From contig LSIB01000012.1 in assembly GCA_001556025.1 (NCBI GenBank), forward strand, positions 1 through 63,764: a stretch of DNA of 63,764 bases. The letters are read 5' to 3'. Shown in pieces: positions 24,010 to 63,764 of this stretch. Position numbers and translations under genes: made by a program. The first letter of the stretch is position 1. Each line of letters starts with the position of its first letter. The notes beneath the pieces were generated by a model that saw only the letters and a list, made by a program, of their open reading frames with translations, was not told the DNA's origin and ran no database searches. This DNA comes from Rhizobiales bacterium CCH3-A5 (GTDB lineage Bacteria; Pseudomonadota; Alphaproteobacteria; Rhizobiales; Beijerinckiaceae).

Positions 24010-25617
24010 ATGTCGAAAACCGACAGACTGAAAGCCCGCCAGCCGCGCGGTTTTGTCGATCGCGGCCCGGCCGACGTCGCCGCGACCGAGCGCATGCTCG
24101 GCGTCATCCGCGAGAGCTTTTCGCGCTACGGATTCGAGCCGGTCGAGACGCCCTTCGTCGAATTCTCGGATGCGCTGGGCAAGTTTTTGCCCGATCAGGA
24201 CCGGCCCAATGAGGGCGTCTTTTCGTTCCAGGATGATGACGAGCAGTGGCTCTCGCTGCGCTACGACCTGACCGCGCCGCTCGCCCGCTACGTCGCCGAG
24301 AATTACGACGCGCTGCCAAAGCCCTATCGCAGCTATCGTGCCGGCTACGTCTTCCGCAACGAGAAGCCGGGGCCGGGGCGGTTCCGGCAGTTCATGCAGT
24401 TCGACGCGGATATCGTCGGGGCGGGTTCGGTCGCGGCCGATGCCGAGATCTGCATGCTGGCGGCCGACACGATGGAAGCGCTCGGCATCAAGCGCGGCGA
24501 TTACGTCGTCAAGGTCAACAACCGCAAGGTGCTGGACGGCGTGATGGAGGCGATCGGGCTCGGCGGGGAGGAGAATGCCGGGCGGCGGCTGACCGTGCTG
24601 CGGGCGATCGACAAGCTCGACAAGTTCGGGCCGGAGGGTGTGCGGCTGCTGCTTGGCGAGGGGCGCAAGGATGAGAGCGGTGATTTTACGAAGGGCGCGG
24701 GGCTCAGTTCCATTCAGATGGATCTAGTTCTAACTGCTGTAACATTGATTGACCCCAAATTCCTTCAAGTTAAGCCGCATTACCTCAAGTTAATCTCGTT
24801 TTTCAATCGTGGTTACCGCAAGGCGTTTTCAGTCAAAAAATATCGGGAATACCTCCGTGCAATATTGGGTCAGAAAGATCTCCCTACAATCGTCGAAGAG
24901 GGATTGGAAGAACTCGAATCAATTCGGAAAATGTTGCGCGAGGAAAAATATGACAAACTTCGCATCCGCATCGACCCCTCCGTAGTCCGCGGGCTCGAAT
25001 ACTACACCGGCCCGGTCTACGAGGTCGAACTCACCTTCCCGGTCACCAATGACGACGGTCAGATCGTTCGCTTCGGCTCTGTCGCTGGCGGCGGGCGTTA
25101 TGACGGGCTGGTCGGGCGCTTCCGGCCCGAGCCCGTGCCGGCGACCGGCTTCTCGATCGGCGTCTCGCGGCTTTACTCCGCGCTGAAGGCGGTGAAGTCG
25201 CCGATCGTCGATGCCAAGGCCGAGCTTCCGCTCGTCGTCGTCACCGCGATGGACAACAAGTCGCCGGAGCACATGCCCGTCTATCAGGCGATGGTCTCCG
25301 AACTCCGCAAGGCGACCGACGACTCCGGCAGGCCGCTGCTGCGCGCCGATCTCTATCTCGGCTCCTCGGGCTTCAACGCCCAGATGAAGTACGCCGACAA
25401 GCGCGGCGCGGTCTGCGCGGTGATCCAGGGTTCGTCGGAGCGGGAGGCGGGGACCGTGATCGTCAAGGACCTGATCCTCGGCGCGGAACTCGCCGCCGCC
25501 GGGCGCGAGGTCAAGGATTCCGCCGAGCACAAGGAGCGGCAGGCGCAGGCGCAGATCACGCGCCCCGCCGGGCAACTCGTCGAGGCCGTCAGGGAAGTGC
25601 TGGCGCGCTACAAGTGA
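24010..25617 (+). CDS. hisS: Histidyl-tRNA synthetase with an AT-rich internal block
   Basis: Class II synthetase that charges tRNA-His; 535 residues, long as in many alphaproteobacteria. Motif 2 is [20 protein letters not shown] (109-128) and the HisA-type motif is [10 protein letters not shown] (327-336). A class II motif 3-like GGGRYDGL and [13 protein letters not shown] follow. The C-terminal anticodon-binding domain is present, with a Lys/Gln-rich end. Residues 238-317 are encoded by an AT-rich block (see next entry) that uses codons rare in the rest of the window, such as TTA, CTA and ATA. The frame is intact. The gene heads hisS-hisZ-hisG, a typical alphaproteobacterial arrangement. 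Confidence 0.95.
24721..24960 (+). other. AT-rich mosaic block inside hisS (codons 238-317)
   Basis: By hand count 98 of 240 bases are G or C (41%). The 120 bases at 24481-24600 have 81 (67.5%) and those at 24961-25080 have 75 (62.5%). Both borders lie in conserved HisRS sequence (KGAGL before, [15 protein letters not shown] after). The block encodes the end of the insertion domain and the run up to the HisA motif. It adds many Lys, Ile, Phe and Tyr residues. Gene conversion with a low-G+C donor is the simplest reading. Confidence 0.85.
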
Positions 25618-25623
25618 GCCTCT

Positions 25624-25763
25624 TCCCCTCCCCCTGGTGGGGAGGGGATAGGGGTGGGGGGCGAATGACCGGGCGAGCCCTACCGACGTCGAGCCCGGTC
25701 GTTCGCCCCCCACCCCGGCCTCCGCTTCGCTCGGCCGACCCTCCCCACCAGGGGGAGGGGGAC
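25624..25763. repeat. Palindromic intergenic repeat (CCCCTCCCCCTGGTGGGG type)
   Basis: Large imperfect inverted repeat between hisS and hisZ. The outer arms carry CCCTCCCCCTGGTGGGGAGGG and its complement, the inner arms GGTGGGGGGCGAA and its complement. Shorter relatives occur at the right edge (63700-63764). Confidence 0.8.
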
Positions 25764-25843: not shown

Positions 25844-26956
25844 GTGCCCGCATCGCGCGCCAGCATCGAGACCGTGACCGCGCTGCTGGAGCGCGAGGGC
25901 TACGCGTTGGCCGAGCCCGCGATCCTGCAGCCGGCCGACGTGTTTCTCGACCTGTCGGGCGAGGATATCCGCCGGCGCATCTTCATGACGCAGGATGCCG
26001 AGGGCAAGGACTGGTGCCTGCGGCCGGAATACACCATTCCCGTCGCGCTGGCCCACATCGCCTCGGGCGCAACCGAGCCGGCGGCCTATTGCTATTGCGG
26101 CCCGGTGTTTCGCATGCGCGCCGGCGAGCCCGGCGAATTCACGCAGGCGGGGCTCGAATCCTTCGGCCGCGACGATCTTTCCGCCAGCGACGCCGAAATC
26201 ATGGCGCTGACCATCGAGGCGGCGTCCGCGCTGGGCCTGCCCGCGCCCCGCATCGTGATGGGCGACGTCGCGATCCTGAATGCCGTGCTCGACGCATTGT
26301 CCGTGCCCCATGGCGCGCGCCGCCGGCTGATGCGCGCAGTGGTGCAGGGCAGGGGGGCGGAGAGCGTCGCGGCGCTGGCACCGGTCGCAGCGGAGGGCGA
26401 GGCGGCCCATGCCGGCCTTCTCAAGGCGCTGGAGGGGCAGGAGCCCGGGGCGGCAAAAGCCTTCGTCGAGGACGTACTGTCGATCGCCGGCATCGCGGCT
26501 GTGGGCGGGCGCAAGCCAAGCGACATCGCCGAGCGCTTCCTGGCGCGCGCCGCCGAGCGCGAGAATCCGGTCGGTGCCGAGACGCAGGCGCTACTGGCCG
26601 AGATTCTCGCCGTGTCCGGCGATCCCGATACGGCCTCCGCCGCATTGCGAGTTCTGGCCGACAAAGCCTCGCTCGATCTCGCCCGCGAACTCGATGCCTT
26701 CGACGAGCGCACCGGCTTCCTCGCCGTGCGCGGCGTCGATGTCGCTCAAATCGCGTTCTCGGCCGGCTTTGCCCGCAATCTCGACTACTACACCGGCTTC
26801 ATCTTCGAACTGCACGATCCTGCGCGGGCGGACGGCAAGCCCGTCGCCGGCGGCGGGCGCTATGACGGCGTGCTCGGCCGGCTTGGGGCAGGCCAGCCGA
26901 AACGCGCCGTCGGGGCCTCGCTCTGGCTCGACCGGCTGCCGGGAGCCGCCTCATGA
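25844..26956 (+). CDS. hisZ: ATP phosphoribosyltransferase regulatory subunit
   Basis: HisRS-like paralog without synthetase activity that binds short HisG and permits histidine feedback control; 370 residues. Class II synthetase remnants are readable: [53 protein letters not shown] and [14 protein letters not shown] use GTG 25844, which has AGGA ten bases upstream; the nearby ATG 25833 is in another frame. It overlaps hisG by 4 bp (ATGA), so the two subunits are translationally coupled. Confidence 0.95.
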
Positions 26957-27939
26957 GCAACGATGCAGCGCTCGTCATCGCCGTCCCCTCCAAGGGCCGG
27001 CTGCAGGAAAACGCCGCCGCCTTCTTCGGCCGCGCCGGGCTGAAATTCGTGCAGTCCCGCGGCGAGCGCGAGTATCGCGGCGCGATCGCGGGGCTGGAGG
27101 GGGTCGAGGTCGCCTTCCTCTCGGCCTCCGAGATCGTGGCGCAGCTCGCCTCCGGCAAGGCGCATCTCGGCGTCACCGGCGAGGATCTGGTCCGCGAGCA
27201 GGTCACGGATGCCGACAATGCGGTCGAGATGCTGACGCCGCTCGGCTTCGGCCACGCCAATGTCGTCGTCGCGGTGCCGCAGGCCTGGATCGACGTCAGG
27301 ACGATGGCCGATCTCGACGACGTCGCCTCGCTGATGCGCGCGAGGCAGGGCCGCAAGCTCCGCGTCGCGACGAAATACGTCAATCTGACGCGGCGCTTCT
27401 TCGCGCAGCACGGCCTCAACGACTACCGCATCGTCGAGAGCCTGGGCGCGACCGAGGGCGCGCCGGCCGCCGGCACGGCCGAGATCGTCGTGGACATCAC
27501 CACCACCGGCTCGACGCTGGCCGCCAACGCGCTGAAGGTGCTCGACGACGGCGTGATGCTGGCCTCGGAAGCCAATCTCGTCGCCTCGGTCAACGCGCAT
27601 TGGAGCGAAACGGCGCGCAGCGCCGCGAACGCCATCCTGTCGCGCATCGCCGCCGAGGAAGAGGCCCGTACCGTGCGCGAAGTGCGCGCCAATCTCTCTG
27701 ACGCGGGCGAGACTCTTGCGGAGATCGTCGCCAGTGTCGGTGCGCGCATGCCCTTCGGCCCGGCGATCGCGGGAGCGCCCGCGACGATCCATTGCCCGGA
27801 GAAGGCGGTCTTCGCGCTGGTCGCAAAGCTGGCGCAGGCTGGAGCCGACGACGTCACGGTCTCCGCCCCGGCCTATGTCTTCCGGCGCGAGAACCCGCTG
27901 TTGGCGAGGCTTCTGGCCCGGATCGGCGGCGCCGGCTGA
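26953..27939 (+). CDS. hisG: ATP phosphoribosyltransferase catalytic subunit
   Basis: First enzyme of histidine biosynthesis, joining ATP and PRPP in the cytoplasm; 328 residues. It begins [18 protein letters not shown], contains [12 protein letters not shown] and the PRPP-binding [16 protein letters not shown]. Its extended C-terminal part (about 215-328) is a feature of many alphaproteobacterial HisG proteins that still work with HisZ. Its stop is one base away from the T6 tract of a minus-strand terminator. Confidence 0.95.
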
Positions 27940-63699: not shown

Positions 63700-63764
63700 G
63701 TCGCTGGTGAGTGCGCTCTTCCCCTCCCCCTCGTGGGGAGGGGAAGAGCGCACTCACCAGCGAC
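63700..63764. repeat. Perfect 30 bp inverted repeat at the right window edge
   Basis: Arms 63700-63729 and 63735-63764 are exact complements around CTCGT. The inner part (CCCCTCCCC/GGGGAGGGG) is like the element at 25624-25763, but the outer 16 bases are new. The right arm ends on the last base given. Confidence 0.9.

Follow-up and report, generated by a model that had tools for sequence, protein, structure and literature searches.

Several kinds of locus are relevant as background. The gene penA of Neisseria is a mosaic essential gene formed through interspecies recombination, and serotype-like or specificity-domain variation is found at O-antigen genes and in the target recognition domains of HsdS. 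Aminoacyl-tRNA synthetases are antibiotic targets in related bacteria, as illustrated by LeuRS, the target of agrocin 84. The insertion domain of histidyl-tRNA synthetase (HisRS) is located close to the acceptor stem of the tRNA. In Alphaproteobacteria, the RRCH clade is characterized by a eukaryote-derived HisRS paired with a tRNA-His that carries A73, and the co-divergence of both partners is reported in the motif 2 loop of the enzyme (PMC3937112).

An AT-rich block within hisS

The window, i.e., the whole stretch of 63,764 nt that was analyzed, contains a hisS gene whose main features are collected in Table 1. The product was recognized as a class II HisRS by its tRNA-synt_His and anticodon-binding domains, the HisA motif and the HisRS fold. 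Its 120 best homologues were 76–84% identical to it, and those with a genus name were mostly from Bosea, which assigns the window to this genus or to a near relative of it.

Table 1. Features of the hisS locus (window positions).
Feature	Positions	Strand	Remarks
hisS, histidyl-tRNA synthetase	24010..25617	+	535 aa, ATG at 24010; same-strand hisZ, then hisG, downstream
Motif 2 loop region	24349..24396	+	contains a 14-residue loop string; reported site of clade-specific tRNA-His recognition
Conserved N-side flank	24655..24705	+	residues 216–232; two short strands in the model
Exchangeable block	24706..24972	+	residues 233–321, second half of the insertion domain; GC of variable part 0.42
Most hypervariable part	24730..24909	+	residues 241–300, from the residue frequencies of 62 sequences
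Conserved C-side flank, HisA motif	24973..25014	+	residues 322–335
Block borders			conserved 15-residue string on the N side, 13-residue string (HisA) on the C side
hisZ, HisRS paralogue	25844..26956	+	control gene
hisG	26953..27939	+	control gene

A first-pass annotation of the window had pointed to an in-frame AT-rich block in hisS, with 98 G+C in 240 nt (41%) at 24721–24960 and richer flanks. The recount gave the same figure (GC 0.408, versus a mean of 0.673 for the 63.8-kb window), which is also the lowest value of any 240-nt segment of the window, reached at 24712. When the whole window was scanned, 24665–24989 was the only region containing any 240-nt segment with GC of 0.45 or less. The first-pass counts were right. 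A 120-nt profile yielded 0.68–0.70 upstream, 0.41–0.43 in the block and 0.65–0.71 downstream. The reading frame runs uninterrupted through the AT-rich block. GC3 dropped along with GC, from 0.9–1.0 per ten codons at 181–220 to 0.3–0.6 at 221–320, and was back up at about residue 321 (0.7–0.9 at 321–360). The switch in codon usage that had been noticed was also found: TTA, CTA and ATA occur four times in the 89 block codons versus none in the remaining 446, and AAA occurs seven times in the block versus twice elsewhere. The assignment of the block to residues 238–317 agrees with the ATG at 24010, except that the unit defined by comparison with relatives is slightly wider, residues 233–321. Its placement in the insertion domain between conserved motifs is supported.

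A high-confidence structural model (pLDDT 92) shows the HisRS fold with four helices inside the block, so the allele of the window is predicted to be helical; an earlier model, built on a shallow alignment, was of low quality (pLDDT 55) and was set aside.

Just 3′ of hisS, at 25625–25760, there is a palindromic element made of nested inverted repeats with 22-nt arms (100% identity) and 24-nt arms (96%). The core of its outer arm has a third copy, with one mismatch, at 63722–63739.

Replacement of block alleles within and between genera

The set used to study the variability of the block comprised 62 genes, namely that of the window and 61 from the Bosea genus. They came from 66 sequences, one of which lacked an ORF while three were missed; among the 67 Bosea-genus genomes, two had no real hisS match and two had hisS broken by contig ends. 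The mean frequency of the majority residue, taken per 15 residues, was 0.76–1.00 outside the block, 0.18–0.39 at residues 241–300 and 0.65–0.72 at the two block edges (n = 62). From the GEGRKDESG motif to the HisA motif, counting the motif ends, this stretch measured 80–128 residues in the window and its 120 best homologues, and in 70 of these it fell into many unlike sequences.

A pairwise comparison was run with 193 of 199 proteins, six being missed by the motif expression, and the core was taken as everything after the block together with a maximum of 190 residues preceding it. In the 703 pairs with 95–100% core identity, the median block identity was 0.18, with 87% of the pairs below 0.30 and 11% above 0.60; this set mixes database proteins and loci, such that in some pairs both members represent the same, or almost the same, gene. 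Proteins 99% identical elsewhere may have just 10–26% identity in the block. For instance, P0013 (Bosea sp. LjRoot9) and P0016 (Bosea vaviloviae) share 99.3% of the core and 11% of the block, and P0044 (Bosea lupini) and P0097 share 99.75% and 17%, respectively. It had been proposed that the block would be ancestral if all close relatives shared it; the alignment with close relatives indicates that it is not common to them, so that this objection does not apply.

When clustered at 40% identity, the blocks of the 62 genes fell into 30 families, and Chao1 estimated 65 families for the 62 genes, i.e., the sampling is unsaturated. On the core tree, many of whose forks are weakly supported, the raw count is at least 40 block changes for the 30 families. 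Family F01 occurs in five separate places of this tree and F02 in four. F00, which accounts for 17 of the 62 genes and is found chiefly in two clades, is not AT-rich. The tree is that of the core, blocks of different families being unalignable. In a second genus, that of L066 (titled Afipia), where 28 of 29 loci were used, there were 21 block families in 28 genes, and the closest unlike pair shared 98.3% of the core and 9% of the block.

Concerning alleles common to different genera, seven of the 28 Afipia blocks had a best match to a Bosea-type block at 0.42–0.62, while the other 21 gave 0.22–0.36, near background (shuffled blocks reached at most 0.33). L331 and P0074 (Bosea robiniae) share a block at 0.62 though their cores are only 0.70 identical. 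Compared with 2000 shuffles, the allele of the window gave z scores of 18, 10, 10 and 12 against P0025, P0011, P0060 and L332, respectively, versus about zero, the same as shuffles, against two unrelated blocks. By eye, a motif of the KPFSxxxYxxYL type is common to these five alleles, with small changes in some of them, including that of the window.

Taken together, these data show repeated replacement of one allele by another within a genus, and some alleles are common to distant genera. The block and the remainder of the gene thus have different histories, as in a mosaic gene (40 changes for 30 families, and cross-genus alleles). With high confidence, this block can be described as an allele of a hypervariable module that is exchanged horizontally and lies in the insertion domain of HisRS enzymes of this type. 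The foreign mosaic block initially proposed is therefore retained as an in-frame, compositionally foreign part of an essential gene; the one-off swap is replaced by recurrent exchange. A single foreign insertion was rejected, as the slot varies across the order sample, whose 101 genomes all have a match to hisS (weak in one, G230), and in two genera.

The abrupt borders and the odd composition could also be produced by an artefact in a broad sense, i.e., an assembly chimera, an intron, an intein or an insertion element. The probability of this is practically negligible, as many genomes carry differing open-frame blocks at this position, in some cases on multi-megabase contigs, and the high-confidence HisRS model takes in the block. 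Open frames in many genomes led to the rejection of intein, intron and assembly error, and a chimeric join in the window itself is very unlikely because block variation recurs in other genomes.

The composition of the blocks was also compared. The standard short form, which is about 61 aa long and occurs, e.g., in Microvirga, is close in GC to the gene that carries it, and divergent forms are for the most part richer in AT. For the order sample (55 of 69 loci), the block minus core GC was –0.10 for divergent forms (29 of 31 negative) versus +0.03 for the standard form (8 of 24 negative). In the 62 genes of Bosea and the window, block GC was below core GC in 47, and the difference was –0.121 for singletons, –0.074 for other shared families and +0.017 for F00 (n = 17). 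That divergent alleles are AT-richer, singletons most of all, is consistent with their import from a pool richer in AT and with subsequent amelioration.

Concerning the DNA beside the block, identity 15–30 codons upstream was 0.67 in unlike-block pairs versus 0.84 in like-block pairs. This dip corresponds to a second, milder variable patch at about residues 203–217 of hisS (24616–24660). Elsewhere the identity was near normal, with smaller dips nearby, and imported flanks were not clearly seen, which indicates that the exchanged tracts are short or were re-homogenised.

A source pool was not found in the databases searched. The search with the block of the window alone, which the first-pass annotation had recommended, was unproductive: not one of its 65 candidates had an E value as low as 10. 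Among viral contigs there was one relative, irrelevant (31 residues at 50%). Among phages there were 22 records, none with at least 80% query coverage, and the best 20 of the 22 were distant HisRS at 23–34% identity. Plasmids gave 100 matching records, 37 with at least 80% coverage; the best 18 of these 37 were all from Alphaproteobacteria and measured 0.59–4.6 Mb, with one exception of 21.9 kb, and the block was read in only one of the 18 (L380). On the 21.9-kb record, which is entered as a plasmid of Cereibacter sphaeroides, hisS lies at NZ_CP015293.1 14008–15462.

Possible drivers of the exchange

The first-pass annotation had considered that a swapped domain could change the recognition of tRNA-His, i.e., that the blocks could fit HisRS to differing tRNA-His identities or acceptor stems. 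The location of the insertion domain near the acceptor stem speaks for it, and one point in the window could favour RNA contact, since its own variable part is basic (+6 in 59 residues). There is no tRNA gene in the 63,764-nt window, and the evidence on tRNA-His comes from relatives. In Bosea the tRNA-His carries A73. Of 67 Bosea-genus genomes, 66 contained a 40-nt core of it, which was exact in 63 and had one T-loop base changed in three, and the full gene was identical in 29 of the 30 read. So, the block changes repeatedly while tRNA-His is nearly invariant; within the Bosea genus no covariation of tRNA-His with the block was found, and co-evolution of both was rejected. The variable part of 121 divergent alleles was acidic, with a mean charge of –0.068 per residue, and net positive in only two. 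The motif 2 loop was the same in 149 of 179 genes (the window plus 148), differed in four and was not parsed in 26. On this evidence, adaptation of the blocks to tRNA-His is very improbable, and the changed recognition suggested for this gene is not supported. It is worth noting that the A73 of the relatives and the letters of the loop place this enzyme in an RRCH-type pair, at the level of the loop and not of the single residue Gly123. The variation lies outside the catalytic core and the tRNA partner.

The strongest rival explanation is neutral shuffling at a permissive site, in which the middle of the insertion domain would accept nearly any foldable sequence and recombination would shuffle an old pool of alleles. 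The conserved flanks would be natural recombination anchors, and no antagonist is known. The dN/dS values can be read on either side. Of 22 hand-chosen within-family pairs, 16 were computable, and the block gave 0.02–0.20 in 15 of the 16; this is purifying selection on the alleles, against a site free to vary, and it also shows constraint only. Such low values within families suggest that diversification proceeds via replacement rather than point change. Synonymous divergence of the blocks was doubled (0.59 versus 0.31 and 0.29), in part because of weaker codon bias.

Three further observations argue against a neutral site. A block segment of at least 45 aa was present in all 179 distinct genes parsed, where parsing needs both flanking motifs and where 46 loci without an ORF by the motif rule and 12 missed ones are left out. 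The other genes of the same loci have nothing comparable, as the lowest identity in any 50-residue segment was 0.15 in hisS (n = 29) versus 0.55 in hisZ (n = 24) and 0.60 in hisG (n = 12). Finally, in the alphaproteobacterial family of genome G078, taken from the class sample as a control with the same type of enzyme, 30 genes from 31 genomes had a single block family. In the 30 pairs of this family with core identity of at least 0.95, the median block identity was 0.86 and none was below 0.30; it fell gradually, to 0.33 at core identities of 0.7–0.8. This quiet family indicates that the hypervariability is neither inherent to the HisRS type nor an effect of alignment. All things considered, neutral shuffling seems unlikely.

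Two separate observations can be added. The C-terminal end of HisZ (residues 321–370) was rather variable too among the compared loci (0.55 over that segment). In the class sample, genome G160 gave two hisS-like matches, both within long open frames (509 and 525 aa; contigs C24 and C51), and one possibility for the second is a spare or resistant allele.

It could also be thought that each block is a local physiological adaptation, e.g., to temperature, histidine sensing or a regulatory partner protein, and not to an enemy. The distribution of F00, in 17 of 62 genes and mostly two clades, would agree with this. Nevertheless, many unrelated alleles among tree neighbours, together with cross-genus alleles, are unlike the few optima to be expected, and this explanation appears improbable.

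Many divergent alleles at a fixed place with conserved surroundings, and a control family that is negative for them, are what diversifying selection would leave at the allele level. The most likely driver is diversifying selection by an antagonist of this HisRS surface; the description given above and this driver, taken together, form an account that we regard as somewhat probable. According to it, the antagonist (a phage protein, an injected or imported protein toxin, or another inhibitor) would bind the HisRS surface, and rare alleles would then be favoured, as in serotype-like loci, by frequency-dependent selection. The slot is delimited by the conserved N-side flank on one side and by a conserved last helix plus the HisA motif on the other; alleles would move via homologous recombination in these flanks, and newly arrived alleles would be AT-rich and ameliorate over time. 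More tentatively, HisRS may be contested in Hyphomicrobiales, with phage proteins or interbacterial toxins recognising the insertion domain and bacteria trading an open-ended repertoire of domains. This would possibly amount to an antigenic-variation-like system within the translation machinery.

Meaning and comparison with known systems

The usual view of aminoacyl-tRNA synthetases is that of conserved housekeeping enzymes that change slowly, and here one domain is replaced outright between close relatives. If the exchange is driven by an antagonist, the alleles point to a new weapon against translation and to a bacterial escape without loss of the enzyme; if it is not, this is a striking case of sequence exchange tolerated by an essential enzyme. 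Whole hisS should also be avoided as a marker for this order. The catalogue of alleles makes the question of the driver directly testable through block swaps.

In the open-access literature, no paper on such a region in an aminoacyl-tRNA synthetase was found by title or abstract, most subscription papers lying outside that scope. The HisRS of the RRCH clade is the same type of enzyme with the same type of tRNA (A73 in Bosea); co-divergence is described there for the tRNA and for the motif 2 loop, and a hypervariable, exchangeable insertion domain is not mentioned in the part of that source considered here (PMC3937112).

The systems mentioned at the outset share other features with the hisS block. 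The attack of agrocin 84 on LeuRS resembles the antagonist interpretation in that a synthetase is under attack in Hyphomicrobiales, with a putative agent in the case of HisRS. The penA mosaics resemble it in being cross-species exchanges of blocks in an essential gene, under selection by an antagonist that would be its counterpart in hisS; however, penA blocks are alignable homologues, while hisS has many mutually unalignable families at one fixed place. O-antigen and HsdS loci have the same fixed flanks and many unrelated, often AT-rich alleles exchanged across species, but they are surface or defence genes, while hisS encodes an essential cytosolic enzyme of translation. So, it can be said that this is a known kind of evolution, that of mosaic essential genes and serotype-like loci, and that its place and extent are unexpected.
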